Below the pieces are notes generated by a model. It saw nothing but the letters and a program-made list of their open reading frames with translations. It was not told where the DNA came from and did no database searches. Shown here in pieces: positions 1 through 25,768 of a DNA stretch of 37,084 nt. How positions within the stretch are numbered: position 1 is the stretch's first letter; every line of letters starts with the position of its first letter. The stretch covers positions 1 through 37,084 of the forward strand of contig JAENWH010000001.1 of the NCBI GenBank assembly GCA_016650135.1. The letters run 5' to 3'. Made by a program: the position numbers and the translations under genes. This stretch comes from Peptostreptococcaceae bacterium (lineage in GTDB: Bacteria; Bacillota_A; Clostridia; Peptostreptococcales; Anaerovoracaceae).

Positions 1-71
1 AACTTTTAGCGGCAATACAAAATAGTTGTAGGAGCCGTGCTGAGATTATCGCTTTCTTGGAGAGCAAGTAA
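1..71 (+). CDS. C-terminal end of an unidentified gene (5' end outside window)
   Basis: The third forward frame is open from the window edge and encodes 22 residues ending ...SRAEIIAFLESK before TAA at 69-71. The composition looks like a real C-terminus. The SRAEIIxFL pattern resembles the last winged-helix turn of RecG-like or AlbA-type transcriptional regulators, but so short a piece cannot settle the family. It is convergent with the dehydratase operon. The stretch from 72 to 347 contains no gene that I can support, only the inverted repeat at 81-115. Confidence 0.45.
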   Translation, partial: LLAAIQNSCRSRAEIIAFLESK

Positions 72-80
72 CTTATATCC

Positions 81-115
81 CAATGCCATCAATTTCTAAT
101 AGGTAAATGGCATTG
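81..115 (+). terminator. Inverted repeat after the left-edge gene, possible terminator
   Basis: CAATGCCAT (81-89) and ATGGCATTG (107-115) form a perfect 9-bp stem with a 17-nt loop, 10 bases after the stop at 71. The position fits a transcript end. No clear T-run follows, so it may instead be an RNA-stabilising hairpin. Confidence 0.35.
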
Positions 116-347
116 AGTGGGTAAAGTTTGGGAAGTTAGCATTTAAATTTGCGTTTAAGGATTAAGTTAATAATTATTTAAAAACCCAGTCCTTCTTTTT
201 ATTCTAAATGGTAAATATATATTTCTTTATTATATTAATTTCATTTCATTTCAAATAAACCCTGATTAGGCGGATCATATTATTACCCAGAGTTCAAAAA
301 AATAATATTCAGAAGCAACATCTTCCGTCCCAACTTTGTTGAGATTT

Positions 348-379
348 AAAAGGTGCACAAATTAACTTGTGCACCTTTT
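348..379 (-). terminator. Rho-independent terminator of the dehydratase operon
   Basis: AAAAGGTGCACAA (348-360) and TTGTGCACCTTTT (367-379) are a perfect 13-bp inverted repeat with a 6-nt loop. It begins 14 bases past the last stop codon of the operon. The minus-strand arm ends in four U residues. Its symmetry means it could also stop transcription arriving from the left. Confidence 0.8.
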
Positions 380-393
380 GGGATACATTACAT

Positions 394-2631
394 TCACTCC
401 GCCATTATTTTCATTATCGTCGGTGCTTTTTTACTATTGATAAATAACCGTTCTTCTGAACTTAAGTTAATCATTGCAATTTGATATTTAGATAATCCGC
501 TAGGCTTCATTTTCGCAGAAACTTGCAATGGTTTCTTGCCTCGGGCATACTCTACTGCGTTTAGCCCGATTTCTTTGTATAAAGAATAGCTTGAAAAATG
601 CATATTAAAAGAGACCTCTAAACTTTCAGTTTGAGCTTTTTCAGAATGATTAATTCGAACAAATCCCTTTGACTGAATTCCTATCCCTATTCCCGATTTA
701 CTGTAAGTTGCACTCAACTGAGCAATTTCCCCCAAATCTCCTGTATGATATATTTTTACAATAGCGACACTCATTCCTGATTCCTGAACACCTTCAACAA
801 TATTTTCCAGTATTCGAAAATGGTTGTTATATATTTCTTTTCCAGTTCCCTTGTTTGCGAAGGCCGGGGATATACCTATTACAATATCTGCCTCGTCGCC
901 TTTAACATTTGATACCTCTTCTAAATTATAAAAGCCCTTTTTATGGTCCTCTTTACCTTGCATTTCCAAGATATTCTTAGGCATTAAAGCAGACGCCTTC
1001 TTTTTCAATTTCTCCCAGCGTTCACCTTCCAACCTATAGCCAGTTCCCGGGCCTTGATAATCGTTAGAATCGTTCAATCCACTGAGGGTTTTTAAACCCT
1101 TATCAAAAATTGCCGCAACCTGCAGATAGTCTCCGCAAACTCTTTCCTTTAGCATCTTAAGAACATTTTCCCCCACGTCTATAAACCCTTGTTTTTGAAG
1201 TGCCGTGACAATGTCAATGGCATTTACACCTTTATTTAAAAATTCTTGTGCCGCGACCAAATCAGCTGCCATGTTTCTATCTGGCATCTCCTCATTAGAA
1301 TATGCATAAGTGGCAGCCTCCACTTCTTCATCTGAAATTTTAGGCAAACCCAATCCCTTGAAGACTCCCTGGCAGGCTTTTGCAGCTTTATTTCTCACGG
1401 CTATCGTATCGCACTCAAGTATTGGTTCTATACCCCCGTCCACTTGCATGTCTCTTTGAATCATATAATAATCATCATAATCGTCACAGTCTGTATTAGA
1501 ACCGGCAAATAAATCATCAAAATTCGGGGTTGCACTGTATCCTGAGGTAATAAAGTCTGTTCCGGGCATCATTTGCATCAGTAGTTTCGCTGTTCGACGC
1601 ATATCAGAGTGTGAAAATGTCTGGTCATTTCCAGATGCGACTTCCAGATCCAACAGAGAAACAACTAAATTTTCTGCCGCGATTGCCAAAAACCCCTCTG
1701 GAACAGCACTTGTAATACCAATACAACTTATCGAACCATTTTGAACACCTTGCGCTCCGCAAGCTCTAGCTAGAAATACGCAAAGTATTTCCAGATAGAG
1801 CATAGATTTTTTATTACTATGTCCTAATAGAACTTCTGCTCCTGTACCCGATGTAAATCTCATTTTCATTCCGCGGGAAGCATACAGTGATGCTAAAAAC
1901 GCTTTCGACCAAATCGTGTCGTCCCCGTCATCCATTGCCTCCTCAGTGCCATATAAGGATACCGTCTCCGCATAGCTAGTTAGCCCAAGCATGCCCATCC
2001 TAAGTTCTAAAGACTCCTCCATTGAGCATTGTGTTAATACCCCTGCTCTACAGGTCTGCGCCCCAACTAAAATTGATAAAGCATTAAAAGGTGCATACCT
2101 TGAAACTGCACAGGTAGTCTCAACCTCAGCAAAACCTCGTAGAGCAGCTTCCGCCGCATCTGCCGCCAAAAGCGCAGGATTATCCTTTATATTGGTAACA
2201 ATAGCCTGGTTTGCCGGAGTTCTGCGTACTCGCATTTTCATTTGACCCATCATTATTTCAACTGCATTTAAACTTCTGACCACCTGGAGCATCTTGGCGG
2301 GTGTTATTGCTGTAGTAATCTTTACAATATCTTCGCGCTTTACATTAATATCAACAATCATTTTGGCAATAAGATTCGTTTCCATAGACATCGCCTTTTC
2401 AGCAAATTCAATATTAATCCCGTATTGCGCTATAAAAATCTCTAGAGAATCAAACTCACTGTAGGGTTTTCCATCCATTTCTACTATAACGCCGTTCTCT
2501 ATTTTAATGCCTGGTGCAGGGTCATAAGGAGAGTTCATTGCTGACAGCCCACCTTCCGGCCACTCAACAAAAAAACTATCCTGATTAATGGGCATCTTAT
2601 TTAACTTTTCAAATCTTTTGGATCTTCTCAA
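394..2631 (-). CDS. Diol dehydratase large-medium subunit fusion, active-site His lost
   Basis: Residues 1 to about 556 align along their whole length with the large subunit of adenosylcobalamin-dependent diol/glycerol dehydratase (PduC). Residues about 580-745 are a medium-subunit (PduD) domain (DIVIGISPAF, SGIGIGIQSKG), so two normally separate subunits form one chain. I chose the TTG at 2631: it lies 7 nt after an AGGTGAT Shine-Dalgarno-like site and gives MRRSKRF, matching the homologues. A GTG four codons upstream has no site. Gln142, Glu171, Glu222, Gln297, Asp336 and Ser363 (K. oxytoca Q141, E170, E221, Q296, D335, S362) are kept. The His143 equivalent is Ile144 (codon ATT, two base changes from His). 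In the medium-like half the conserved HQRDL...FPQ-PL block (about 657-681) is also replaced. Last gene of the operon, directly after the second small subunit. It may be a pseudoenzyme, a regulatory subunit or a dehydratase with altered chemistry. Confidence 0.85.
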   Translation of the reverse strand: MRRSKRFEKLNKMPINQDSFFVEWPEGGLSAMNSPYDPAPGIKIENGVIVEMDGKPYSEFDSLEIFIAQYGINIEFAEKAMSMETNLIAKMIVDINVKREDIVKITTAITPAKMLQVVRSLNAVEIMMGQMKMRVRRTPANQAIVTNIKDNPALLAADAAEAALRGFAEVETTCAVSRYAPFNALSILVGAQTCRAGVLTQCSMEESLELRMGMLGLTSYAETVSLYGTEEAMDDGDDTIWSKAFLASLYASRGMKMRFTSGTGAEVLLGHSNKKSMLYLEILCVFLARACGAQGVQNGSISCIGITSAVPEGFLAIAAENLVVSLLDLEVASGNDQTFSHSDMRRTAKLLMQMMPGTDFITSGYSATPNFDDLFAGSNTDCDDYDDYYMIQRDMQVDGGIEPILECDTIAVRNKAAKACQGVFKGLGLPKISDEEVEAATYAYSNEEMPDRNMAADLVAAQEFLNKGVNAIDIVTALQKQGFIDVGENVLKMLKERVCGDYLQVAAIFDKGLKTLSGLNDSNDYQGPGTGYRLEGERWEKLKKKASALMPKNILEMQGKEDHKKGFYNLEEVSNVKGDEADIVIGISPAFANKGTGKEIYNNHFRILENIVEGVQESGMSVAIVKIYHTGDLGEIAQLSATYSKSGIGIGIQSKGFVRINHSEKAQTESLEVSFNMHFSSYSLYKEIGLNAVEYARGKKPLQVSAKMKPSGLSKYQIAMINLSSEERLFINSKKAPTIMKIMAE

Positions 2632-2632
2632 G

Positions 2633-3061
2633 TTACTTATCACCTTTCAATTTATTTCTCTTCGCATAAACCTCTATGGCTTGTCTTACAAATGCAGCAT
2701 TTAACACCGCACCTTTTTCTTCAAGTTCTTCTGCTATTTCCGCAAGTTCTTCTTTTGTAGACCTGAAAGGTCTCAAAGCCCCATAAATTTCAAGGACCCT
2801 TTTATCAGAAAAGCCCGTCAGCTCTGCCGCCCGTCTTAAATTCGCCGCCATTTGCCTATTTTTCGCGGATTCCGCAATCTGTGCCTGGTATTCCAAGGTT
2901 TGCGAACTAATTCTGCAGTCATCAACTGTTACATCCCCTAACAAAACACTCTCCATTGTAATATCTTCAATTTTTTTCCCAGTAGGAGTTAAAATAAGTT
3001 CAGGCCTTTTGTCCGCTAACGGATAATCCTTTTTTGAATCTAATTTTTTCAAATATGCCAT
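2633..3061 (-). CDS. pduE: Diol dehydratase small subunit, copy 2 (PduE-like)
   Basis: This 142-residue protein is the gamma subunit of a B12-dependent diol/glycerol dehydratase. It has the family core DYPLADKRPELI near the N-terminus, then CRISSQTLEYQAQIAESA, NLRRAAELTGFSDKRVLEIY and RPFRSTKEEL. It starts directly at the structured core and lacks the amphipathic N-terminal peptide that targets Salmonella-type PduE into microcompartments. Its ATG overlaps the medium-subunit stop as TAATG, so translation is probably coupled. It completes set 2 with the preceding large and medium subunits. The fusion that follows has no small subunit of its own and might share this one. Confidence 0.92.
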   Translation of the reverse strand: MAYLKKLDSKKDYPLADKRPELILTPTGKKIEDITMESVLLGDVTVDDCRISSQTLEYQAQIAESAKNRQMAANLRRAAELTGFSDKRVLEIYGALRPFRSTKEELAEIAEELEEKGAVLNAAFVRQAIEVYAKRNKLKGDK

Positions 3062-3642
3062 TATTCCAATACCTCCCTTAAGATAATTTCTATGTCAACG
3101 GGCAGTTTCTTGCTCACCACCAGCTCTGTTTCTTTGATATGCAGCAGTGCAGCTTTGATTTGATATTTCGCTAAAGCCATCTGATCATTTAAAGTTGGCA
3201 CCGGCTCTGGCGTATTGCCTTTACCGTATCTAGCGGCATTTTTACCAATCTGCCGGTAAATATTTGCATCATACAGAGGTGCCTGTGGGAATATTTCCAA
3301 ATTATCAAGCTGCTGTAAATCTCTCTGATGTATCACAATAGTTCCTTTAGATTGAATCCCTATACTAATGCCCGACCCACTCATCTTTGCTGCTTCGTTG
3401 GAAAATGAAGATAGGTCGGAACTATTATAGTATTTTACGAATCGAGGCTTAAAGCCTTCTTCTTCAACACCCGCTGCCAGTTCCCTTACAACAATAGCAT
3501 GAGAAAGCCCCACGATTGTCTCTCTTTGTTGTACTCCAAATGAAGGGGACAATGCAATAATAATTTCATCCAGTTCCCCGGAAGGTTGAGCTAACCCTAA
3601 TTCTTGTATTTCTAATTCTATTTTTATATTTTTAACACCCAT
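3061..3642 (-). CDS. pduD: Diol dehydratase medium subunit, copy 2 (PduD-like)
   Basis: This 193-residue beta subunit of a B12-dependent diol/glycerol dehydratase helps bind the cobalamin cofactor between alpha and beta. Visible family signatures are DEIIIALSPSFG, GVEEEGFKPRFVKYYNSSDL, SGSGISIGIQSKGTIVIHQRDL, LEIFPQAPLYDANIYRQIGKNAARYGKG and LHIKETELVV. All conserved blocks are intact, in contrast to the medium-like half of the downstream fusion. The ATG has a GAGGTGA site. The roughly 20-residue encapsulation peptide of compartment-associated PduD is missing. The gene starts 9 bp after the large subunit 2 stop and overlaps the small subunit start by one base. Confidence 0.93.
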   Translation of the reverse strand: MGVKNIKIELEIQELGLAQPSGELDEIIIALSPSFGVQQRETIVGLSHAIVVRELAAGVEEEGFKPRFVKYYNSSDLSSFSNEAAKMSGSGISIGIQSKGTIVIHQRDLQQLDNLEIFPQAPLYDANIYRQIGKNAARYGKGNTPEPVPTLNDQMALAKYQIKAALLHIKETELVVSKKLPVDIEIILREVLE

Positions 3643-3651
3643 TTTTTCACC

Positions 3652-5313
3652 TCAAAAATCCTTAGGCCCTAATATATTTTCTCGTTGAATTATTTTATTC
3701 CACCGTTCATCAGAAATTTGATATCCGGTTCCTGGACCCTCATACTGATTGGGGTAGTTTAACGCGCTTTCCAAATTACAATCTTCATCAAATATAGCAG
3801 CGGTCTGCAAATAATCCCCTGTAATTCTTTGCTTCAACATATCCAGAATATTTTTTGAAACGTCTGTGTAACCCTTTTCCCAAAGTGCTTTTGTAACGTC
3901 AACTCCTGTATTTCCAGCAAGAAATTTTTCTGCCGCCTTTAAATCTTCCACCATATTACGCTTTGGCATATCATAGCTTGAATATGCATAAGTTGCAGTT
4001 TCAACCTCTAAATCCGATATTTCTGGTAAGTCAAAATATTGAAAAACAGCCTGGAGAGCTTTTGCCCCCTTATTTCTGACACGTATTGCGTCTTCTTCCT
4101 TTATAGGAAGTATTCCCCCATCCACATGCATGTCTCGTTGCAGTGCGTACCAGTCATCGTAATCATCACAATCTGTATTTGACCCTGCAAACATATCATC
4201 GTAATTTGGCACGGAACTGAATCCTGAGGTAATAAAGTCAGTACCCGGTAAAAGTTGCATAAAAACTTTAGACATTCTTCTCATATCTGAATGTGTAAAT
4301 GTCTGGTCGTTACCTGATGCCACCTCTAGGTTTAACATGGATGCCATAAGGTTTTCTGCTGCCATTGCTCTAAACCCTCCCGGCACTGCACCAGGTATTC
4401 CAATGCAGCTTACTGAGCCATTTTGTGTCCCCTGGACGCCGCACCCTCTTGTCAAGAATATACACCTAGCCTCTAAATACAACATTGATTTCATTTCCGT
4501 ATTACCCATTAGAAGTTCTGAGCCCGTACCTGATGTGAATCTCATTTTTATTCCTCTAGATGCATAAACAGAAGCGAGAAATCCCTTTGACCACGGTGTA
4601 TCATCCCCATCAGTCAAAACCGTTTCAGTTCCATATACAGATACTGTTTCTGCATAGGAAGTAAAACCTTTCATTCCCATCTCGAGCTCCATTGATTCTT
4701 CCATTGAGCATTGAGACAAGACCCTGTTTTTTGCACATAGCCCGCCAACCAATAAGGCTAAGGCATTGAAAGGAGCGTAGCGTGTAACAGCTGTGGTAGT
4801 CTCAATTTCCGAAAATCCACGAAGAACCGCTTCTGCTGAATCTGCCGCCATAAGCACTGGATTATCATCTAGATTTGTTATATGTGCCTGGTTTGAAGGT
4901 CTTCTCCTTGCCCTCATTTTCATTTGTGCCATCATTATTTCAACCACATTTAAGTGACTCATTACCTTTGTGATTTTAGCTGGAGTAATGGCAGTTGTAA
5001 TATTTATTACTTCCGCTCTCGAAACATTAACATCAACAAGCATTCGGGCAATTTCCAAAGTATCCATTTTCATAGCATCTTCCGCACGCTCAATGTCTAT
5101 ACTGTAGTCAGCTATAAAGATATCTATGGAATCAAATTCTTCTCTTTTTTTCCCATCCATCTCTACAATAATGCCCTTTTCAATCCTTATCCCAGGGTTT
5201 GGGTCATACTCGGATTCCATAGCAATTAAACCCACTTCAGGCCATTCCTCAGAAAACCCATCTAGGTTAACAGGCCTTTTTTCAAGTACTTCAAACCGTT
5301 TAGACCTTTTCAT
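3652..5313 (-). CDS. pduC: Diol/glycerol dehydratase large subunit, copy 2 (canonical)
   Basis: This 553-residue catalytic subunit should convert a 1,2-diol or glycerol to the corresponding aldehyde with adenosylcobalamin. With the ATG at 5313 (GGGGAGG site 9 nt upstream) the N-terminus is MKRSKRF, as in homologues; a TTG three codons earlier abuts the Shine-Dalgarno site and is unlikely. All key positions of the K. oxytoca enzyme are present: Gln142, His144, Glu171, Glu222, Gln297, Ser302, Asp336, Gln337 and Ser363, each one more than the K. oxytoca number. The pocket residues Ser302 and Gln337 are also canonical, so ordinary propane-1,2-diol or glycerol activity is the best guess. The start overlaps the end of the DUF2294 gene by 14 bp. 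Confidence 0.95.
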   Translation of the reverse strand: MKRSKRFEVLEKRPVNLDGFSEEWPEVGLIAMESEYDPNPGIRIEKGIIVEMDGKKREEFDSIDIFIADYSIDIERAEDAMKMDTLEIARMLVDVNVSRAEVINITTAITPAKITKVMSHLNVVEIMMAQMKMRARRRPSNQAHITNLDDNPVLMAADSAEAVLRGFSEIETTTAVTRYAPFNALALLVGGLCAKNRVLSQCSMEESMELEMGMKGFTSYAETVSVYGTETVLTDGDDTPWSKGFLASVYASRGIKMRFTSGTGSELLMGNTEMKSMLYLEARCIFLTRGCGVQGTQNGSVSCIGIPGAVPGGFRAMAAENLMASMLNLEVASGNDQTFTHSDMRRMSKVFMQLLPGTDFITSGFSSVPNYDDMFAGSNTDCDDYDDWYALQRDMHVDGGILPIKEEDAIRVRNKGAKALQAVFQYFDLPEISDLEVETATYAYSSYDMPKRNMVEDLKAAEKFLAGNTGVDVTKALWEKGYTDVSKNILDMLKQRITGDYLQTAAIFDEDCNLESALNYPNQYEGPGTGYQISDERWNKIIQRENILGPKDF

Positions 5314-5686
5314 TTGTGCCAACCTCCCCGTCGCATATAATTGTCATACAACACATATTGTTTCCCATTGAAAAATCAACAAAATAGCATATAATTTCCT
5401 GACCTAAAATAAGTTCAATATTTTGCTTTAAAACCGGAAAGAATTTTTCCACCAATTTCCTTCTTGTATGCGCTACCGCCTGCTTGCTATAGTCATCATC
5501 TAAAATTGACTGCTCCACATATGTTAAAAATTCATTGCCAATTATCACTACAATATTTTTTGTAATGATCACAGTTGCATCCTTTAGACCCTTTTGAAAA
5601 TTCTTACGCATCCATCCTTTATAAAAATCTTCACATTCTTTACGGATCCTATTCATTTTTTTGGAGTCAATTTTTTGATTATCCAT
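5300..5686 (-). CDS. DUF2294 family protein of unknown function
   Basis: This 128-residue protein fits DUF2294. It has an N-terminal helical stretch, a central strand pattern (DATVIITKNIVVIIGNEFLT), a helix with RRKLVEKFFPVLKQNIELILG, and a final strand (IICYFVDFSMGNN). The family has no established biochemical role that I know of. Its ATG follows the preceding PEBP-like stop immediately, with no convincing ribosome binding site, and its end overlaps the start of large subunit 2. Expression is therefore probably coupled at both ends. Its place between the reactivase block and the second dehydratase suggests an accessory role, which is inference only. Confidence 0.75.
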   Translation of the reverse strand: MDNQKIDSKKMNRIRKECEDFYKGWMRKNFQKGLKDATVIITKNIVVIIGNEFLTYVEQSILDDDYSKQAVAHTRRKLVEKFFPVLKQNIELILGQEIICYFVDFSMGNNMCCMTIICDGEVGTNEKV

Positions 5687-6196
5687 TTACTTACCATAAC
5701 ACCCTTTTAATATAGATTCAGCCAATATATGGCCTTCCATTGATTTTAATAATTGATTATAGTAAAAGCCTTTTTTCATATCAAGAATCTTGTCTAAAGC
5801 ATAAATCTTTATCTCATATTCGTGTTCTCTTTCCGGCGCCGGTCCTCCATAATGCAGAGTTAAATCTTCGTTTATGTCGACATAAGGGCCATAAGGGATT
5901 GCCCAGCTATTTGTACCTTGAACAAATTTCCCACCTTCTCGGCTTGCATTTTTATCAAGGTTTGTAATGTCCTTGTGAATGTCTGCTAATAGCCAATGAA
6001 TCCAGCTGAATCCTTCGTCAGGGATATTATCATAATCCTGAAAAACAATGGCATAGGATTGTGTCCTTAAAGGTGCTCCGCTCCATTTAAGAGGTAATGA
6101 GGTCTGAGGCACACCTTGAATCACATTTTCAGAATTAATTCCATACTCATTCAAAATATGTCCTTCATATATTCCATTACTCATAATTTTAAACAT
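5687..6196 (-). CDS. PEBP / YbhB-YbcL (Raf kinase inhibitor-like) protein
   Basis: This 169-residue protein has the phosphatidylethanolamine-binding-protein fold signatures of the bacterial YbhB/YbcL group: LPLKWSGAP near residue 35, SYAIVFQDYD, the WIHWLLADI segment carrying the pocket histidine, the YGGPAPEREHEYEIKIYALD segment, and a C-terminal helix with EGHILA. These proteins have an anion/phospho-group-binding pocket, but bacterial functions are poorly defined. No signal peptide is seen. It sits 16 bp after ddrB with an AGAGG site and directly adjoins the DUF2294 gene. A PEBP-fold protein inside a dehydratase operon is unusual. It might bind a substrate or product, but nothing in the sequence proves it. 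Confidence 0.85.
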   Translation of the reverse strand: MFKIMSNGIYEGHILNEYGINSENVIQGVPQTSLPLKWSGAPLRTQSYAIVFQDYDNIPDEGFSWIHWLLADIHKDITNLDKNASREGGKFVQGTNSWAIPYGPYVDINEDLTLHYGGPAPEREHEYEIKIYALDKILDMKKGFYYNQLLKSMEGHILAESILKGCYGK

Positions 6197-6212
6197 TAGG
6201 TAACCTCTCCCT

Positions 6213-6557
6213 TTATATTATTTCTATAAACGGCTTTTTTTTAATGATTCTTGCTGCATTCTTACCAATAGTTTTAGCAATTTCTAACTCTTTGACATGG
6301 TAATCAAACAATGGTTTATGTTCTTTCAGCTGCCTGTAGAATACTGCTACAACACCCTCATCAATATGTATTGTTACCCCAATACCGTTTCTATGGCAAA
6401 TATCATAAACTTCTCCCTGTTTAATGGCTTCAAAATTTATGCGATAGGGTATCCCTTCTTCTTCAATACCATAACCTGTTGCTTCCGCTAAATCTTGAAA
6501 TTCCATAGAAGTACAGAAAATTTCAATTATACTGCTTTCTTTATTATTCCCCCCCAT
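6213..6557 (-). CDS. ddrB: Diol dehydratase reactivase small subunit (DdrB/PduH-like)
   Basis: This 114-residue protein resembles the small subunit of the diol dehydratase-reactivating factor. The family shares the dehydratase medium-subunit fold and displaces it during cofactor exchange. Visible marks are GYGIEEEGIPYRI, NGIGVTIHIDEG and KTIGKNAARIIKKKPF, which echo GIEEEG, SGSGI and IGKNAARY of the medium subunits. The ATG lies 8 nt after a GGAGGG site and overlaps the 3' end of ddrA by 14 bp, so the two reactivase subunits are probably made together. Confidence 0.9.
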   Translation of the reverse strand: MGGNNKESSIIEIFCTSMEFQDLAEATGYGIEEEGIPYRINFEAIKQGEVYDICHRNGIGVTIHIDEGVVAVFYRQLKEHKPLFDYHVKELEIAKTIGKNAARIIKKKPFIEII

Positions 6558-8379
6558 TTTTCAATCCCTCCAAATATGACAGCAAGAGCCCCGTGGCAAC
6601 CGCATTTCTCGGTCCTTCCGTTGATCTCACATTAGCCTTGCCGCTTACAATCCCAAAATATGAAAGAGTATCGGTAACCATATTACCCAACTCAAAATCC
6701 AAAGACGAGCCACCAACAAGAACAACATGTTCAAACTCGTTTATATTTCCAGTGATTGAAATTTTTTTCAATGCCCTCAAAATATTTGCAATCAATACTT
6801 TCTCTTTGGCTTCTTTTCGAATTTGCCTTATTTTTTCAAGATTTTTCTTTGTTTTTATTAATTTCCAGCCCTCAGGTTTCATGATTATTGTCCCAGCAAA
6901 ATATTTGCTTTCAATTGAATCTTGAAAAAACTGAACAGTACCGTCTTCGTGTCTTATATGATATAGAGATTCTACTTTTGCCAAAGGGTACTTCTTAATA
7001 TCTTCTGCCAGCGCAAAATTGTCTAGCCCAAGTTCTGCGCTTATCAGCATAGTAACCATGTTTCCTGCTCCTGCAAGATGTACAGGCCTTGTCTTTCCAT
7101 CCTTATTTATTAAACAGGCATCAGTAGAGCCTGCCCCTATATCTAAAACTAAAAGAGGTTTTTCAGTTCCTGGTGTTGTCAATGCTCCAACAACTGCCAT
7201 GCTGCCTTCGACGCCTCCAATCTCAATTGGTATTCCAATAGCATCGGAAATTAATGCAGCTAATTTTTCCATCTGCAGCTTTTCTGTTTTAACCATTGCG
7301 GCTATACCAACAGCTTTTTCCATTGCAAATTCATTGGCCAGGTTACCCCGTACCTCTTTTGGAACGATTGTATCCACCGCCATTAAATCTTTGATGCATA
7401 TCTTATTATACTCCTGTTCCGTAATATTCGCCATTTCCTTTCTAACTTTTTCCAGCATTCCACCTATATTGGTACCTTTTGTACCAATAACATCTAAAAC
7501 ATCTCCCGCTTTAACCATAACTTTCATAATTTCGTGGGCGCCATCATCTACTGAAGCTGTGTACGTCCTGCTTTCGTTTCGAATTATTATGTCACCAGCT
7601 GGAATTCTTCTCTCCATAACCTCTCCGGCAGGTGTTTTTATTACAACTGCAGACCTGTTTCCAATAAGAGCCTTGGCAATGGGTACAATCTGCTTTGTTT
7701 CCTTTGCATTCAACTTAAAGACTGTGGCTATCCCATATGGGTTAGAAAGAAGATCAATACAATTTCCTGGCTCGGCAACCTCAACAGCACATTCCATTCC
7801 AAGGGGAACTCTTCTGATTATCTCTACTTCATCAACAATTGGTATTTTCTTAAACAGCCTGTTGTTTATCAAAACCCCATCGTCTTTTTTCAGAATAGCC
7901 CCTTCTATTTGATAACCATTTTCAACTTTTTTATTAATAATTGCTGTAGCATTCAAAAAATCTATTTCTTCAGTGACTACGACAATATATTTTTCTTCTT
8001 TATTTGCGTTCTCTAAATCTGTTATAAGAATTGTTTTTCCTATTCCAATGCCTAGCCCCCCAGGAGTATCTGGGTTATGACCAATAAGTGTGGATTCGGT
8101 AATAATAGTTTCAGTAATTGTTTCCATAGCAAAGTCGCCTATAACTGGCGTTGCTTCATTTACTCGTATTAAATCAATCTGTTCAAATTCAATCCCCATC
8201 TTTTTAACAGCATTTTTTAAGGACTGAATTACCCCTTCTATATTATCTTTTGTACCTTTTATTCCTGTAGTTCCTGATATCCCACTTACGCATCGAAGCA
8301 ATACCCCATCTTCCACTTCCCCTAGAGCTGTTTCCGTGGTGGCGTTTCCAATATCAACTCCCGCAATATATTTAATCAT
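6544..8379 (-). CDS. ddrA: Diol dehydratase reactivase large subunit (DdrA/PduG-like ATPase)
   Basis: This 611-residue protein, close to the usual length of about 610, is the ATPase that releases damaged cobalamin from inactivated dehydratase. It has actin/Hsp70-type nucleotide-binding motifs at the N-terminus (AGVDIGNATTETALG) and in the second half (LVLDIGAGSTDACLI). Other family blocks are NEATPVIGDFAMETITET, IGHNPDTPGGLGIGIG, PYGIATVFKLN and a C-terminal VVLVGGSSLDFELG. A GGAGGT site lies 9 nt before the ATG. One reactivase pair serves three large subunits in the operon, and its central position suggests it supports at least sets 1 and 2. Whether it can act on the fusion, where the medium subunit cannot dissociate freely, is an open question. 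Confidence 0.95.
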   Translation of the reverse strand: MIKYIAGVDIGNATTETALGEVEDGVLLRCVSGISGTTGIKGTKDNIEGVIQSLKNAVKKMGIEFEQIDLIRVNEATPVIGDFAMETITETIITESTLIGHNPDTPGGLGIGIGKTILITDLENANKEEKYIVVVTEEIDFLNATAIINKKVENGYQIEGAILKKDDGVLINNRLFKKIPIVDEVEIIRRVPLGMECAVEVAEPGNCIDLLSNPYGIATVFKLNAKETKQIVPIAKALIGNRSAVVIKTPAGEVMERRIPAGDIIIRNESRTYTASVDDGAHEIMKVMVKAGDVLDVIGTKGTNIGGMLEKVRKEMANITEQEYNKICIKDLMAVDTIVPKEVRGNLANEFAMEKAVGIAAMVKTEKLQMEKLAALISDAIGIPIEIGGVEGSMAVVGALTTPGTEKPLLVLDIGAGSTDACLINKDGKTRPVHLAGAGNMVTMLISAELGLDNFALAEDIKKYPLAKVESLYHIRHEDGTVQFFQDSIESKYFAGTIIMKPEGWKLIKTKKNLEKIRQIRKEAKEKVLIANILRALKKISITGNINEFEHVVLVGGSSLDFELGNMVTDTLSYFGIVSGKANVRSTEGPRNAVATGLLLSYLEGLKNGGE

Positions 8380-8451
8380 AAATACTTAACCTCCGTTATA
8401 AATAAAAAAGGTTACGTAGCACAAATCTGCCCGCAAAAAATCTTTTTTAAT

Positions 8452-8484
8452 TTAACAGAGACTGATAGTATCAGTCTCTGTTAA
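8452..8484 (-). terminator. Strong stem-loop between pduE copy 1 and ddrA
   Basis: TTAACAGAGACTGAT (8452-8466) and ATCAGTCTCTGTTAA (8470-8484) are a perfect 15-bp inverted repeat with a 3-nt loop. In the operon direction it is followed by an A/U-rich stretch rather than a clean U-run. It may be a partial terminator or an RNA-processing/stability hairpin that sets the ratio of dehydratase 1 to reactivase. No clear separate promoter is visible before ddrA. Confidence 0.5.
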
Positions 8485-8515
8485 TACTATTTTTAGTCTA
8501 ACACTTTTGCAAATT

Positions 8516-8935
8516 CTAGTCTACTCTAAACATGTTTCTTGATTCATAAACAGTTGCTGCTTCTCGTAATAAAGCGGCATTAATTGTTGCATCATACTCC
8601 GTCTCCAGCTCTATTGCAATATCCAAAAGTTCCTGTTTCGTTGATACGTTTGGCCTCATGCAGTTGTACATGCTTAAAATTCTATCATCAGGAATACGAG
8701 TCATCTCAGCTGCTCTTCTAAAGTTTCCCGCCACCTGTGGATTCCCAACTGAATCTTCAATCTGTGCTTGATACTCTAAAGTCTCGGCACTGATTCTACA
8801 GTCAGCAGGAGTAATCTTTCCCGAAAGAATATTTTTCAGATTGATATCATCCACTGGTTTACCCGTATGAGTTTTAATTAATTCAGGTTTTTTTTCATAA
8901 AGAGGGTAATCCGTTTTTGCATTCAATTTATTCAT
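8516..8935 (-). CDS. pduE: Diol dehydratase small subunit, copy 1 (PduE-like)
   Basis: This 139-residue gamma subunit has TDYPLYEKKPELI at the N-terminus, then CRISAETLEYQAQIEDSVG, NFRRAAEMTRIPDDRILSMY and RPNVSTKQEL. The ATG at 8935 follows GGAGGTGAACTTA and matches the start of homologues. A longer reading from 8977 would overlap the permease gene and lacks a ribosome binding site. As with copy 2, the microcompartment-targeting peptide is missing. The gene is separated from its large and medium partners by the permease gene, an unusual order, but only 16 bp lie between the permease stop and this start. Confidence 0.93.
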   Translation of the reverse strand: MNKLNAKTDYPLYEKKPELIKTHTGKPVDDINLKNILSGKITPADCRISAETLEYQAQIEDSVGNPQVAGNFRRAAEMTRIPDDRILSMYNCMRPNVSTKQELLDIAIELETEYDATINAALLREAATVYESRNMFRVD

Positions 8936-8951
8936 TAAGTTCACCTCCAAA

Positions 8952-10280
8952 TTAATCAAGATCAAATTCTTCTTCATAAGGTCTTAATCTTTTTCTACCA
9001 AACAAGAAGTAATATACGATTGCTATTGCATATACAAGTAATACCCATTTAATAATTGCAAGGTTAAATGCAACTACGCAGAATACAATAAATATCAAAC
9101 TTATCATTGAGATAATAGGAGTAATTGGGAATGCCACTTTGTATGGCCTATCCATATTTGGTTCTTTTTTGTGAAGAACGAAAATACTGATTAGAGCTAA
9201 AACATACATACCCAAAGCAGCAAACACTGAAATTGTTATAACTACTGCTGTTAATCCAGAAAGTGCTACTATTACAGCGATTATGCCTGGAACGATCAAT
9301 GCGAAATGAGGTGTTTTAAATCTTGGGTTCAGTTTTGAAAGGAATTCAGGCAGATACCCAGTTCTTGCCATTGCATAACATTGACGTGAATATCCCAATA
9401 CACATCCAATCATGCTTGCTGTTAGTCCAATTAGGCCTACAACCGCCATTACATTTACCCAAGGGCTATCTGGTCCCAATGCATTTGATAATGACTGTGT
9501 CAATGGGAAATCAACGGCCGCAATTTCCATATAATCGCCAGCACCAGCTGCTAAAACACTTGTTATTAAAGCTGTAACACCTAACGTCACTAGTGCTCCA
9601 ATATAAGCTTTCGGGATATCTCTTTTTGGATTTTCCATTTCTTCAGCACTCATTGCAGCACCTTCAACTGCAAAGTAAAGCCACATAGCAAAGGTAACAG
9701 CTCCACAAACTCCCCAGAAGCCATTAGTAAACATTGGTGTTGTTACAACGTTCTGTATTTCAAAGTGAGGTGCAGCGAGAAAATAGAACAATAGCAACCC
9801 CAACAGGGATAATATCGTAACAACCAATTCCATTATAGCAGAGGATTGAACCCCTAGGGTTGCAATTAGAATGAATCCAATCAGGAACACCATTGTAACA
9901 CTCATAGCAGGCAATGCCGGAAACAAGAAGTTTACCACAGCTCCTACCGCAAGAGAAATAGCACAAGGTGCCATTAAAAATGCTAGAAGCATACTGAATC
10001 CGGTGAGGAATCCCCAAAAAGGTCCCAGCGCCCTACGTGTGTATGCTGATGGGCCACCTGCGTGAGGTATACTAGCCGCTAATTCTGTATAACAGAAAAT
10101 AAAACTAAAATAAAAAATACTTACTGGTATGAAAGCTACTAAAAATGAAACCGGTCCTCCTGTCGCATACCCATAGCTGAATCCATAAAACTGTCCTGAT
10201 ATTACCAAACCTACAGCTATTGCCCATAAATGTATTGGCTTGAGTACTTTTTTTAAATGAATATCATTTTGTTTTTCCAT
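8952..10280 (-). CDS. APC-family permease, ethanolamine-permease-like
   Basis: This 442-residue polytopic inner-membrane protein has about 12 hydrophobic segments. The N-terminal pattern LKPIHLWAIAVGLVISGQF, with AGGPSAYTRRALGP and GCVLGYSRQCYAMARTGYLP further on, resembles the ethanolamine (EAT) branch of the amino acid-polyamine-organocation family. The likely role is uptake of a small amino alcohol or related compound, by proton coupling or exchange. It lies between medium subunit 1 and small subunit 1, with an AAGGAGG site 10 nt before its ATG, so it is embedded in a dehydratase gene set. This suggests the substrate of set 1 enters through it. Substrate identity cannot be read from the sequence; another amino acid or amine is possible. 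Confidence 0.85.
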   Translation of the reverse strand: MEKQNDIHLKKVLKPIHLWAIAVGLVISGQFYGFSYGYATGGPVSFLVAFIPVSIFYFSFIFCYTELAASIPHAGGPSAYTRRALGPFWGFLTGFSMLLAFLMAPCAISLAVGAVVNFLFPALPAMSVTMVFLIGFILIATLGVQSSAIMELVVTILSLLGLLLFYFLAAPHFEIQNVVTTPMFTNGFWGVCGAVTFAMWLYFAVEGAAMSAEEMENPKRDIPKAYIGALVTLGVTALITSVLAAGAGDYMEIAAVDFPLTQSLSNALGPDSPWVNVMAVVGLIGLTASMIGCVLGYSRQCYAMARTGYLPEFLSKLNPRFKTPHFALIVPGIIAVIVALSGLTAVVITISVFAALGMYVLALISIFVLHKKEPNMDRPYKVAFPITPIISMISLIFIVFCVVAFNLAIIKWVLLVYAIAIVYYFLFGRKRLRPYEEEFDLD

Positions 10281-10325
10281 AATAAACTTTCCTCCTTAAA
10301 ATAGAATTAATAAAATAATGGATAG

Positions 10326-10889
10326 TTAAAATTGCATTTTCAATTCAACGGTCTTCGCCGATTTTTCCATCACCTCCGTTTCTTTCAGATGCATTAATGT
10401 TGATTTTATAAGATATTTTGAAGGAATCATAAAATCGTTTAAAATTTCAACCGGTTCTGGATTTTCACCCTTTGCATATTTACCCGCATTTTTGCCAATT
10501 TTTCTGTAAATTTTAGCGTCATAAAGTGGTGACTGAGGGAAAAGTTCTAAATTATCAAGCGCTACTAGATCTCTTTGATGAATAACTGTTGTTCCTCTGG
10601 ACTGAATCCCAACACATATTCCTGAACCTGACAGCTTTGACCCTTGACTGGCAATAATAGCAAGATCTGTCGAATTCTTTACTTTTATAAATCGGTATTT
10701 TAGACCTTCTTCTTCTATACCCGCACAAATTTCTTTGATGATTTTTTCTAATCCCACATCTATGATGCTTTTTTTTATTTTTGTCCCAAAGGCTGGTGAA
10801 ACGGCAATTATAACCTCATCTGCACTTTTTCCTGCTTGAGCTTCTCCAAGTTCTTCAACTTTAATCTCACTTTCATTGAATTCCGTCAT
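10326..10889 (-). CDS. pduD: Diol dehydratase medium subunit, copy 1 (PduD-like)
   Basis: This 187-residue beta subunit has the intact blocks DEVIIAVSPAFG, GIEEEGLKYRFIKVKNSTDL, SGSGICVGIQSRGTTVIHQR, LELFPQSPLYDAKIYRKIGK and LMHLKETEV. An AAGGAGGG site lies 7 nt before the ATG. It lacks the N-terminal encapsulation peptide of microcompartment PduD and begins only about 25 residues before the conserved core. It starts 16 bp after large subunit 1 and is followed, 45 bp on, by the permease. It should pair with large subunit 1 to hold cobalamin. Confidence 0.93.
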   Translation of the reverse strand: MTEFNESEIKVEELGEAQAGKSADEVIIAVSPAFGTKIKKSIIDVGLEKIIKEICAGIEEEGLKYRFIKVKNSTDLAIIASQGSKLSGSGICVGIQSRGTTVIHQRDLVALDNLELFPQSPLYDAKIYRKIGKNAGKYAKGENPEPVEILNDFMIPSKYLIKSTLMHLKETEVMEKSAKTVELKMQF

Positions 10890-10905
10890 GATTACACCCT
10901 CCTTC

Positions 10906-12570
10906 TTAAATATCTTGAGGCTTGAGTGCGCTGAATTTCTCTTTTAATTCTCCCCAACGCTCATCACTTAGTCTATATCCAGTACCTGGTCCCATATAGT
11001 CATTCTGATTGTTGATAGCACTCATAACCTTAAAGTTTTCATCAATAACTGATGATGTGTGAAGATAGTCACCAATAACTCTCTGTTTCAACATATTCAT
11101 TACCCTTGTTGATATATCTTCATATCCATTTTCATAAAGCCCTTTAACAATATCAAATCCCGTAATTCCACGATCCATCATTTCTGTTGCAGCTTTCATA
11201 TCCTCTGATTTATTTCTTTGTGGCATGTCTTTATAACAATACGCATATGTTGCCGCTTCAACTTCTTCATCAGTTATTTCAGGCAGGTTTAAAAACTTAA
11301 ATACTGTCTGGCAAACCTTTGCCGCCTTGTTTCTTACTTCAATTGCCTCTTCTTCTTTAATAGGCTTAATTCCACCATCGACTTTCATATCTCTTTGTAA
11401 TACATAATAGTCATCGTAGTCATCACAATCTTCATTTGAACCAGCAAATACATTATCAAGGTTAGGGATTCCTCCAAAGCCTGATGTTACATAATCAGTG
11501 CCGGGCATTAACTGCATTGCCAGTTTTACGCCTCTTCTGAAATCAGAATGTGTAAAAGCAGTATCATTCCCAGATGCAACTTCAATATTCAGCATAGATG
11601 CGATTAAGCATTCTGCAGCCATTGCCCTAAATCCATTTGGGAGTCCAGCAACAAGGGGAATTGCATTAATTGAGCCATTCTGAACACCTTGCACGCCACA
11701 GGCTTTTGTAAGGTAAATGCATCGAACCTCTAAATACAACATACTTCTCTTCTCTGCATTACCCATCAGTACTTCTGAACCAGTTCCTGACGTAAATCTG
11801 ATTTTAATTCCTCTCGACGCATATGCAGATGCCAAGAATGCTTTAGAATATGCAGTGTCTCCTCCATCTATCAATACGGTTTCTGTTCCATAAACTGACA
11901 ATGTTTCTGCATAAGAAGTAAAACCTCTCATTCCTAGTTCAAGTTCCGTAGCTTCTTCCATTGAACATTGGTTAAGAACTCCCGCTTTTCCGGTTTGCGC
12001 CCCAAGCATTAAGGCAATAGCATTGAAGGGTGCATACCTTGCAAGTGCGCAGGTTGTTTCAACTTCGGCAAACCCTCTTAATGCTTCTTCTGCGGCGTCT
12101 GCTGCAATAAGGACTGGATTATCATCTAGATTTGTTGCATGTGCCTGATTAGCCGGGTTCTTTCTTGCTCTCATTTTCATTTGGGCCATCATCATCTCAA
12201 CAACATTTAAATGGTTAATGACCTCTACCATTTTCGCAGGCGTGCATGAACAGCATATTTTGACTATTTCTTGTCTTGAAACATGAATGTCCACCAACAT
12301 CTTGGCTATTTCCAATGAATCAATACTCATTGCTTCTTCTGCATAATCAATATTTATTCCATATCCTGCAATAAAAATATCCAAGGAGTCAAAATCCTTT
12401 CTTTCCTTTCCATCCATTTCTATTACGATGCCATTTTCAACTCTAATACTGGGTTTTGGATCATTTGCCGATTCCATCGTAATAAGGCCAACATCTTCCC
12501 ACTCATAAGAAAAACCATCTTTATTTATTGGCATTTGATCTAGTTTTTCAAAACGCTTTGACCTTTTCAT
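10906..12570 (-). CDS. pduC: Diol dehydratase large subunit, copy 1, altered substrate pocket
   Basis: This 554-residue large subunit of an adenosylcobalamin-dependent dehydratase is the first gene of the operon, with an AAGGAGGT site before ATG. Catalytic and metal-site positions Gln142, His144, Glu171, Glu222, Gln297, Asp336 and Ser363 are conserved (K. oxytoca number plus one). Two pocket positions differ from both the K. oxytoca enzyme and copy 2: Ser301 is Asn302 (NGSINA instead of NGSVSC) and Gln336 is Thr337 (NDTAF instead of NDQTF). In the K. oxytoca enzyme these two residues shape the substrate pocket and influence tolerance of glycerol and longer diols. The enzyme is probably active, but on a different diol or amino-diol. 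A Cys cluster (residues 106, 107, 109) replaces the usual TTAMT/TTAIT segment. Together with the embedded permease this points to an unusual substrate. Confidence 0.93.
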   Translation of the reverse strand: MKRSKRFEKLDQMPINKDGFSYEWEDVGLITMESANDPKPSIRVENGIVIEMDGKERKDFDSLDIFIAGYGINIDYAEEAMSIDSLEIAKMLVDIHVSRQEIVKICCSCTPAKMVEVINHLNVVEMMMAQMKMRARKNPANQAHATNLDDNPVLIAADAAEEALRGFAEVETTCALARYAPFNAIALMLGAQTGKAGVLNQCSMEEATELELGMRGFTSYAETLSVYGTETVLIDGGDTAYSKAFLASAYASRGIKIRFTSGTGSEVLMGNAEKRSMLYLEVRCIYLTKACGVQGVQNGSINAIPLVAGLPNGFRAMAAECLIASMLNIEVASGNDTAFTHSDFRRGVKLAMQLMPGTDYVTSGFGGIPNLDNVFAGSNEDCDDYDDYYVLQRDMKVDGGIKPIKEEEAIEVRNKAAKVCQTVFKFLNLPEITDEEVEAATYAYCYKDMPQRNKSEDMKAATEMMDRGITGFDIVKGLYENGYEDISTRVMNMLKQRVIGDYLHTSSVIDENFKVMSAINNQNDYMGPGTGYRLSDERWGELKEKFSALKPQDI

Positions 12571-12751
12571 TTTTACCTCCTTCTTTTGTTACATAATAAA
12601 AGCCACAAACGACAAAAACAACTTCAAAGCTTTCTGTATTACTTCCCTAACTGATTTTTCAGTTCTGGAGAATACAGTACTCTGACTGTTTAACTCATTC
12701 GTGGCTAACTTCAATCTGCTAACGCCTATTTCCATCTTCCATATTAATATA
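12571..12751 (-). promoter_or_regulatory. Long structured 5' leader of the dehydratase operon
   Basis: About 180 nt separate the predicted transcription start from the first ATG. The RNA can form two perfect small hairpins: a 5-bp stem with 6-nt loop (12689-12674) and a 6-bp stem with 4-nt loop (12664-12649). A 9-bp long-range helix with one G-U pair (12706-12698 with 12609-12601) encloses both, and its 3' arm is followed by UUUAUUAU. This layout suggests a riboswitch or an attenuation/antitermination element. I do not recognise a known class. A cobalamin riboswitch was considered, but the ordered core and B12 box are not present. Confidence 0.4.
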
Positions 12752-15734: not shown

Positions 15735-16898
15735 ATGAACGATGATGACAACTATAAAAATCCAAAAGAAGGAAAGACTTACTTTAGCCCAAGTCTCTCT
15801 TCATTCGAAAAAGGTGAATATAAAGTTCGAATTGCATCTAAATTAATTTCATCACCAGACAGCTATGCTTTTGGTACTATAAAAGGTGAAATCGTATTAA
15901 GACATAAAGAAGGTGCTGAATCATACATTAAAGCCAAATTCATTGAGGATACCAAGAATATTTTTGTTTTAAATATACAAGGCTTTACTGTAGCTACAGA
16001 CAAACCACATAATGCAAGCTTTTCATTTATTGGTGATGAAATTGGAAAACTAATTGAATTTATCAACAATATACAAGCAGTTTCTTTCAAGAATAACAGT
16101 CCCTTAAATATCACTGACGAAGATCTTAGGAAAATTATCATAACTGAGAATCAAGCAAGAAGTCTATTTAATGAAAATCAAGATGTCTTTTCAGAAATGT
16201 TAAAGTCTGCAATAACAACAAAAGATGTTATTGCGATTGGGTATAGGAAAAGGCAATTAGAAACTTATCATAAACTTCTTGAAGATGAAGAATATTTTTC
16301 TTATCTAAAAGAAAGAAAAACCTCTACTAACGAAGGTTTGTGGCAAAAATACTTCGAAAAAAATCCTTGGATATTTGGATATGGTCTTGGGTATATATTC
16401 TTATCATCACTTAATGACAAAAAACTTGAGCAGGTAGTGCAGGGGTATAGTTTAGCAAGCCATGGAAAACGGGTTGACGCACTAATGAAAACTAAAGGCA
16501 TTATATCTAGTTTATGCTTCGTGGAGATTAAAACCCATAAAACACCATTACTTGATAACAACCCCTATCGTTCTGGTTGTTGGGCTCCATCTAGGGAGTT
16601 ATCAGGAGCAGTATCACAAGTACAAGGTACCGTTTCATCTGCAGTTGATAATTTGAGAAGCAAGGTTAGTCTTGAGGACGAAAAAGGTAATCTTACTGGC
16701 GAAGAAGTTTTCAATTATCAGGCAAAATCATATTTGGTAATTGGTAATTTAGAAGAGTTTCGTGACGAACATGGCGTGAATAAGGATAAATTTCGTTCAT
16801 TCGAGCTTTATCGTCGTAACATAGTAAATCCCGAAATAATAACATTTGATGAGTTATATGAACGAGCAAAATATATTGTTCATCAAAATGAAAGCTAA
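15735..16898 (+). CDS. sduA: Shedu anti-phage nuclease SduA (DUF4263)
   Basis: This 387-residue protein carries a C-terminal DUF4263 domain, the nuclease of the single-gene Shedu defence system. Signatures are LWQKYFEKNPWIFGYGL (about 202-218), GKRVDALMK (Asp248), CFVEIKTHKTPLL (Glu264, Lys266: a PD-(D/E)XK-type D...ExK site), and SRELSGAVSQVQ. The N-terminal roughly 150 residues form a beta-rich variable domain, usually the sensing part, followed by a helical linker. The start has an AGGAAGAGAG site. It is encoded opposite to the neighbouring defence genes and appears intact and self-contained. Confidence 0.9.
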   Translation: MNDDDNYKNPKEGKTYFSPSLSSFEKGEYKVRIASKLISSPDSYAFGTIKGEIVLRHKEGAESYIKAKFIEDTKNIFVLNIQGFTVATDKPHNASFSFIGDEIGKLIEFINNIQAVSFKNNSPLNITDEDLRKIIITENQARSLFNENQDVFSEMLKSAITTKDVIAIGYRKRQLETYHKLLEDEEYFSYLKERKTSTNEGLWQKYFEKNPWIFGYGLGYIFLSSLNDKKLEQVVQGYSLASHGKRVDALMKTKGIISSLCFVEIKTHKTPLLDNNPYRSGCWAPSRELSGAVSQVQGTVSSAVDNLRSKVSLEDEKGNLTGEEVFNYQAKSYLVIGNLEEFRDEHGVNKDKFRSFELYRRNIVNPEIITFDELYERAKYIVHQNES

Positions 16899-21821: not shown

Positions 21822-22010
21822 TCATCTAAATAAAGTACAGCCTTGTTCTCTAAACTCTTCAATTTTTGTTATCAAATCATCTTCTGAACAATCAATATAT
21901 TCAGCAAGGCATATTATACATAAAAACTCATTTATTCTCCTACCAAGCAGTTTCTTGCTCAATGCTATTTCATCCTTTTCTAAAACTTTATTACAAAATT
22001 TGCATTGCAT
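21822..22010 (-). CDS. 62-residue zinc-ribbon protein coupled to brxL
   Basis: The protein has CKFC at residues 3-6 and CIIC at 31-34, a four-cysteine zinc site, then an acidic helix (SEDDLITKIEEFREQG). Its ATG overlaps the brxL stop as TAATG, so it is almost certainly translated with BrxL and is the last gene of the BREX operon. No named family is recognised. It could be a small BrxL partner or a replacement for a missing BrxL C-terminal domain. Both ideas are inference from position. Confidence 0.75.
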   Translation of the reverse strand: MQCKFCNKVLEKDEIALSKKLLGRRINEFLCIICLAEYIDCSEDDLITKIEEFREQGCTLFR

Positions 22011-23464: not shown

Positions 23465-23476
23465 ATTCCCCCCTAT

Positions 23477-25756: not shown

Positions 25757-25768
25757 ACTAAATTCACC

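Follow-up and report, generated by a model that had tools for sequence, protein, structure and literature searches.

A natural fusion of diol dehydratase-like large and medium subunits with an altered medium half and, in most of its family, isoleucine at the position of His143

Background

Among B12 radical enzymes diol dehydratase is a textbook case. Its His143 assists the migration of the hydroxyl group, and what is known about this residue rests largely on mutants. Ethanolamine ammonia-lyase is an AdoCbl enzyme that is not known to have an equivalent of His143. In one review (PMC7674605) the H143A variant of the Klebsiella oxytoca enzyme is given a turnover of 5.1 per s against 304 per s for the wild type (two studies), and an inactivation rate of 1.8 per min against 0.025 per min. 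As H143A still turns over, His143 is important but not strictly indispensable. Mutations of E170, E221 and D335 are said in the same text to abolish activity; the table of that review gives 5.3 per s for E170D and 0.08 per s for E170Q (PMC7674605).

Natural fusions of the alpha and beta subunits have been described for Mesorhizobium loti and Mycobacterium smegmatis (Liu et al. 2010, cited in PMC7674605), and engineered dehydratase fusions (Wang 2009, Maddock 2017, Gibson 2013) are reported as active in the same review. Natural large-medium fusions are therefore already in print, and the fusion with Ile143 presented here is a variant of a known enzyme kind. No natural fusion without His143 was found in the accessible text of the open-access literature, PMC7674605, PMC4785665, PMC13210347 and PMC5243119 included.

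Comparison with known dehydratases

The fusion resembles the PduCDE/DhaB enzymes (1dio, 1iwp, 7xrk) in the fold of its large half, with about 60% identity, in the retention of the metal ligands, Glu170, Glu221, Asp335 and Thr172/Ser224, and in the presence of small subunit and reactivase genes in its operon. It differs from them in that both halves form one chain, His143 is replaced by Ile, and R103, H141 and N150 of the medium half are replaced. In the PDB, the top-scoring sequence match (847 bits) is to the alpha-beta fusions of Klebsiella pneumoniae glycerol dehydratase of the 9vi2 series, which we take to be engineered; these have the same topology, but canonical subunits are joined in them and the His is kept. 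The barrel is also related to that of the ethanolamine ammonia-lyase EutBC (Foldseek match to 3abo_A, E 4.3e-9), although identity is only 11% and the assignment of the fusion to the dehydratase family is unambiguous.

Other natural alpha-beta fusions (P0016-P0023, P0030-P0040, L127-L131 and L059) have the same domain order in one chain, but where placed they lie outside the clade of the fusion studied here. They keep His143 (24/24, P0036 being left out as it does not span the position), and in their medium halves R103 and N150 (25/25) and mostly H141 (23/25). Position 301 is Asp in 23 of 24 of them and position 336 is Ala, Thr, Gly or Ser in all 25; judged from these residues, their substrates may be cationic, as an acid would lie close to the C3 of the substrate. 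In one of them, L128, the fusion comes after a PEBP gene and after genes that, presumably, resemble urease genes (N-termini compared by eye).

Organisation of the locus

The window is the whole stretch of DNA analysed, 37,084 nucleotides of a Peptostreptococcaceae bacterium (contig JAENWH010000001.1). Twelve minus-strand genes lie together in it with intergenic gaps of -26 to 136 bases, and the fusion is the last of them (Table 1). The complete dehydratase set that the sequence-only reading had placed next to the fusion is indeed there, with alpha2, beta2 and gamma2 at 2633..5322. The perfect hairpin directly 3' of the fusion stop, which was absent from the list of the automatic scan, is terminator-like and probably marks the end of the operon.

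Table 1. Features of the fusion gene and its operon, with coordinates in the window and residues in the 749-residue numbering.
Feature	Coordinates	Strand	Basis
Perfect 13-pair hairpin, loop of 6	348..379	-	direct reading
Fusion ORF, large (PduC-like) and medium (PduD-like) halves	394..2643 or 394..2631	-	ORF, homologue starts, Pfam
Medium half (Dehydratase_MU match, residues 608-705)	397..900	-	Pfam, alignment
Large half (Dehydratase_LU, residues 7-555)	979..2625	-	Pfam; AF2 model against 1dio/7xrk alpha
ATT codon (Ile) at the position of K. oxytoca alpha-His143	2200..2202	-	alignment, codon reading
gamma2, small subunit of set 2	2633..3061	-	Pfam; stop 1 nt before the TTG start of the fusion
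beta2, medium subunit of set 2	3061..3642	-	Pfam
alpha2, large subunit of set 2, NQAH kept	3652..5322	-	Pfam, alignment
MpsC family protein (PF10057)	5300..5686	-	Pfam
PEBP/YbhB family protein	5687..6196	-	Pfam, NCBIfam
Reactivase small subunit-like protein	6213..6557	-	Dehydratase_MU 57.4 bits, operon place; no NCBIfam match
Diol dehydratase reactivase large subunit (TIGR04491)	6544..8379	-	Pfam, NCBIfam
gamma1, small subunit of set 1	8516..8977	-	Pfam
Ethanolamine permease-like transporter	8952..10280	-	TIGR00908, 432 bits (cut-off 381.75)
beta1, medium subunit of set 1	10326..10889	-	family search
alpha1, large subunit of set 1; His143 kept, Ser301 to Asn, Gln336 to Thr	10906..12570	-	alignment

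G001 (uncultured Firmicutes OKU13), G002 (Sinanaerobacter chloroacetimidivorans BAD-6) and G003 (Firmicutes UBA5559) carry all twelve of these genes in an identical order, and the contig pieces of G397 (STD2_249) and G398 (L_E1_T20_C_bin.72) agree with this order as far as they reach. The next long genes after the fusion are also the same in L001-L004, one of them presumably resembling peptide release factor 1 (N-terminus compared by eye). G324, G190 and G175 carry set 1 with the permease, the reactivase and PEBP, without MpsC, set 2 or the fusion.

No aldehyde or alcohol dehydrogenase family was found by Pfam among the twelve operon genes, no cobalamin riboswitch or other Rfam RNA reached the gathering score in the window, and a plasmid origin was set aside, as positions 1-12600 had no near match at the DNA level in the plasmid collection. 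Microcompartment shell genes occur in four of the five fusion genomes and EutB in three, both away from the operon.

The MpsC family (PF10057), presumably the same as DUF2294, was seen in operons with set 2 and the fusion (window, L001, L003, L005 and L137) and not found in the three operons with set 1 only. The PEBP/YbhB protein recurs beside dehydratase operons (window, L001, L003, L005, L127, L128, L132, L133, L135 and L137). Large subunits of the alpha1 type (window, L090, L091, L092, L132, L133 and L135) have Asn301 and Thr336, near the C3 group of the substrate, in seven of seven cases, and an ethanolamine-type permease accompanies set 1 in all seven operons seen. Set 1 is thus a candidate dehydratase for an amino alcohol or another non-standard diol.

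The fusion gene and its product

The fusion gene starts either at a GTG at 2643, giving 749 amino acids, or at a TTG at 2631, giving 745, and stops at 394. The TTG is the place where homologues start, with ATG or TTG, and AAAGGTG lies upstream of it. Residue numbers below are those of the 749-residue version, and K. oxytoca alpha numbers are obtained in the large half by subtracting 5. The interval 394..2631 had been proposed as a single intact frame of 745 codons, with the strand left unstated; the frame is open from the TTG as proposed, and it belongs to the minus strand, as the plus-strand translation is full of stops.

It had also been claimed that this frame joins a complete PduC-like to a PduD-like domain, and both domains score above their Pfam cut-offs. 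The large half reaches 891.5 bits with PF02286 Dehydratase_LU (cut-off 25) and 875.1 bits with NF011979 (cut-off 788), which places it among the diol/glycerol dehydratase large subunits. The medium half reaches 54.5 bits with PF02288 Dehydratase_MU (cut-off 27) and 92.4 bits with NF011616, below the cut-off of 248. A similar Pfam score led to the idea that the medium half came from the reactivase small subunit; this was dropped in view of the shared C-terminal Tyr-Gln and the length.

The AlphaFold model of the fusion has a mean pLDDT of 77.4 and a pTM of 0.67, with several loops below pLDDT 50, including residues 304-306 and 340-346 in the region of the active site. Compared with solved chains, its target TM score is 0.92-0.93 for alpha chains (0.93 for 1dio and 7xrk alpha) and 0.79-0.87 for beta chains. 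The predicted structure shows that both halves can fold as expected; it does not bear on cofactor binding.

Distribution and phylogeny

The C-terminal half of the fusion was detected in five of the 349 genomes of the family of G002 (E up to 1e-40), and a large subunit in 20 of the 349 (E up to 1e-60, best four candidates at most per genome). With the same number of candidates in the same 349 genomes, and short pieces aside, identity to alpha2 above 64% is confined to the five fusion genomes; the short pieces, at 67-68%, are a fragment of the G398 fusion and a 193-residue piece in G497. Matches in 393 genomes sampled from the order came only from three already known. A scan with a C-terminal profile matched 383 stretches, of which 300 encode relatives; of the 80 kept, five belong to the family at an identity of at least 50%. 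Three word-based searches yielded 23, 12 and 20 proteins; as the second and third found members missed by the first, the fusion family is under-sampled.

In the final tree the clade of the fusion has 25 members: the window, P0002-P0015, P0024-P0029, L001, L002, L003 and L005. P0002, P0004 and P0024 are incomplete, and P0001, the product of the window's fusion gene read from a later start, was not counted. Outside the tree are L137 (first 454 residues, with Ile at position 143), L004 (a C-terminal fragment) and further fragments that duplicate the same genes. The comparison set of 37 non-fused large subunits consists of 25 picked from the scan loci, seven alpha1 and five alpha2.

The fusion clade is monophyletic (100/100) and, the tree being unrooted, its nearest neighbour is the non-fused alpha2, with moderate support (92/83). 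Both lie inside a fully supported group with alpha1 and the fusion L127, to which another tree adds L128 and L129. The remaining placed fusions branch elsewhere on the unrooted trees, so the subunits were probably fused more than once, or a fusion was undone; the M. loti and M. smegmatis proteins are outside the tree sample.

Position 143 and the other residues of the large half

Residue 148 of 749 (144 of 745) had been read as Ile at the position of K. oxytoca His143, encoded by an ATT two changes away from CAT; alignment and codon agree with this. Both separate large subunits of the window retain the NQAH motif. In the final tree Ile143 is found in 22 of the 25 family members and His in three (L005/UBA5559, P0027 and P0028), which form a single subclade (support 99/97). 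All 37 non-fused large subunits and all 24 other fusions spanning the site have His, so that Ile143 is not a matter of chance. Three genomes encode the Ile with ATT and one with ATC, a synonymous variation under a constant residue.

The sequence-only reading had named homologues with His at this position as a finding that would speak against it. They do exist, as a minority of three in 25, and the trait is split inside the family, which is not defined by loss of the His. A pseudoenzyme in the sense of an essential catalytic residue lost in the whole family does not describe it either, His being kept in 3/25, and since these three members keep it, Ile is not required for the function of the family as a whole. 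The Ile-bearing P0014 and P0015 are deepest in the clade (92/88) and the best tree needs two His/Ile changes, as with a loss and a regain. A tree grouping all Ile rows, with a single loss of His, is 5.67 log units worse and is not rejected (p-AU 0.184; 0.18 with fewer rows), so Ile may go back to a single event in the past. Gene conversion from the alpha2 of UBA5559 into its fusion near the His was dismissed, as there is no local jump in nucleotide identity (0.77 in two motif blocks, 0.55-0.82 elsewhere in the large half).

The claim that most other active-site residues are kept holds throughout the family, where 14 active-site or cofactor positions are invariant in 25/25 fusions: Q141, E170, T172, E205, E221, T222, S224, D234, Q296, S301, D335, Q336, S362 and F374. 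We take E205, T222, D234, M373 and F374 to be cofactor or active-site contacts. The metal ligands (Q141, E170, E221, Q296 and S362, which like Asp335 are present in 25/25), the adenosyl contacts T172 and S224 and the role of S301 follow PMC7674605. In the 37 non-fused large subunits 153 columns are invariant. The 19 fusions compared show no change in 134 of these and keep 94% of the 153 on average, and for 14 other fusions the mean is 83%.

Apart from position 143, the large half is clearly altered by M268L, R282L and R314L, each in 25/25 fusions. These three residues are invariant or nearly so in non-fused large subunits, and R314 is often replaced in other fusions. V300 is Ile in all 25 fusions and also in 23/37 non-fused subunits. 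M373 is Leu in 20 and Val in five of the 25, and it is variable elsewhere too, with Met in 29/37 non-fused subunits. The Q267 column is uninformative on the fusion, as the window's three large subunits all have Leu there and 19/37 non-fused subunits have Gln.

The medium half

The replacement of the HQRDL...N block of the medium half, already noticed by the sequence-only reading, is confirmed by alignment. R103, H141 and N150 are replaced in all 24 family members that span them. H204 is lost in the family as well, but also in most other fusions. The 88 separate medium subunits have 34 invariant columns in common. On average the 19 fusions compared keep 50% of these, and 10 columns are lost in all 19; in 14 other fusions 79% are kept and none is lost in all. 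Members of the His subclade have N135 and G150, and Ile members have K/R135 and S150. D112, K135, L148, N150 and Y196 of the medium subunit presumably have cofactor roles.

The change in the medium half is thus common to all members and the His change to most. Loss of the His had headed the sequence-only reading; the alteration that every member shares sits in the medium half. As fusions are known and some family members keep the His, the fusion is less singular than first described, and it gains interest through the medium half and the tie with set 2.

Selection

Nei-Gojobori counts were obtained with synonymous sites saturated in most pairs, and the closest pair, G001-G397, is the most trustworthy. 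The range of dN/dS is 0.030-0.109 for the large half of the fusion (finite dS in 4/10 pairs), 0.047-0.159 for its medium half (4/10), 0.035-0.097 for alpha2 (5/15) and 0.053-0.125 for beta2 (4/10), with a single value of 0.041 for gamma2 (1/10). For G001-G397 the large half has 0.030 against 0.035 in alpha2 (301 codons only), and the medium half 0.047 against 0.053 in beta2. In the pair of the window and G001, dN of the large half is 0.094 against 0.091 in alpha2, while that of the medium half is 0.231 against 0.096 in beta2; for G001-G397 the latter comparison gives 0.040 against 0.046. Constraint on the large half is about equal to that on the adjoining alpha2, and over longer times the medium half is less constrained. 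The 0.03 of the closest pair, far from 1, shows strong purifying selection and bears out the description of the gene as maintained, and internal stop codons, which had been named as a possible sign of decay in relatives, are absent from the DNA of the window, L001, L002, L003 and L005.

Possible roles of the fusion

With about even chances, the fusion is a neofunctionalised protein, probably still a radical, B12-type subunit using the neighbouring small subunit gamma2. This is favoured because 14 catalytic or cofactor positions are kept under a large-half constraint like that of alpha2, because H143A is not dead and because the clade, itself at 100/100, lies beside alpha2 with moderate support; among the pseudoenzyme, the different chemistry and the partner proposed by the sequence-only reading, the retention of the other catalytic residues leans, as far as residues alone can tell, towards altered chemistry. 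Against this reading, cofactor binding could be lost, given that 10 of the 34 medium columns are missing from all 19 fusions; moreover M373 is replaced, H143A is inactivated far faster than the wild type, and residues of a barrel core can be conserved for folding alone. The main rival, possible if rather doubtful, is a non-catalytic partner that pairs with alpha2 by way of its large half, or takes gamma2, and tunes how set 2 is assembled, stabilised, loaded with cofactor or reactivated. The co-inheritance with the set 2 large subunit in all five fusion genomes, while set 1 occurs alone in three genomes, agrees with such a partner, as do the fusion start 1 nt after the gamma2 stop, the Leu at M268, R282 and R314 in 25/25 fusions and a medium half which, besides its lost columns, diverges more than beta2 in distant pairs, though not in the closest. 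However, the invariance of the 14 positions and a constraint close to that of alpha2 are more than a scaffold would seem to need.

An ordinary but weak diol/glycerol dehydratase isoenzyme tolerating Ile143 in the manner of the slow H143A (5.1 against 304 per s in PMC7674605) is unlikely. The C3 pocket with S301 and Q336 is canonical and His-bearing members exist, but the complete set 2 next to it shares these canonical pocket residues, it is not obvious what an equally constrained but slower copy would be for, and the medium half deviates from the 88 ordinary medium subunits used for comparison. A decaying pseudogene or an assembly artefact, which the loss of one catalytic residue and the divergent medium half might recall, is hardly credible: the pseudogene is refuted by the conserved open frames in the window, L001, L002, L003 and L005 and by the closest-pair dN/dS of 0.03, and the same operon recurs in separate assemblies.

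If the fusion is a neofunctionalised radical enzyme, it would have arisen by duplication within, or close to, the operon, the set 2 large subunit being its nearest relative. Canonical features of the medium half would have been lost and, in most members, the migration-assisting His replaced. The chain may fold with gamma2, translated just upstream, and its barrel may still bind a cobamide and the substrate, with the radical chemistry started through the usual adenosyl radical. The migrating group of the substrate would then need no hydrogen bond from His, or would clash with it, Ile offering a hydrophobic patch, and the altered medium half may change the hold on the lower face of the cofactor or the reactivation of the chain. 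One specific form of this chemistry, which we consider very unlikely, is a lyase of the B12 radical type acting on 2-hydroxyethyl amines or ethers (HO-CH2-CH2-X-R) that would move the N- or O-linked group in place of a free hydroxyl and release acetaldehyde, its substrate perhaps being imported by the ethanolamine-type permease of the operon. A family that mostly carries Ile, with a His subclade and the other catalytic residues kept, is a ready-made comparison on the role of His143, and the fusion may bring to light new chemistry or a regulatory subunit of a new type.

Other genes in the window

The remainder of the window carries defence genes. BrxL, PglZ, BrxC and BrxP lie in a row at 22010-32277, forming a BREX-like cluster which we take to be of type 4, and a Shedu SduA protein (568.8 bits) is encoded at 15735-16898. 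Next to the BREX-like genes, at 32398-35568, is the gene of a 1056-residue protein with domains like the C-terminal domain of RNA polymerase alpha and like sigma-70 region 4.
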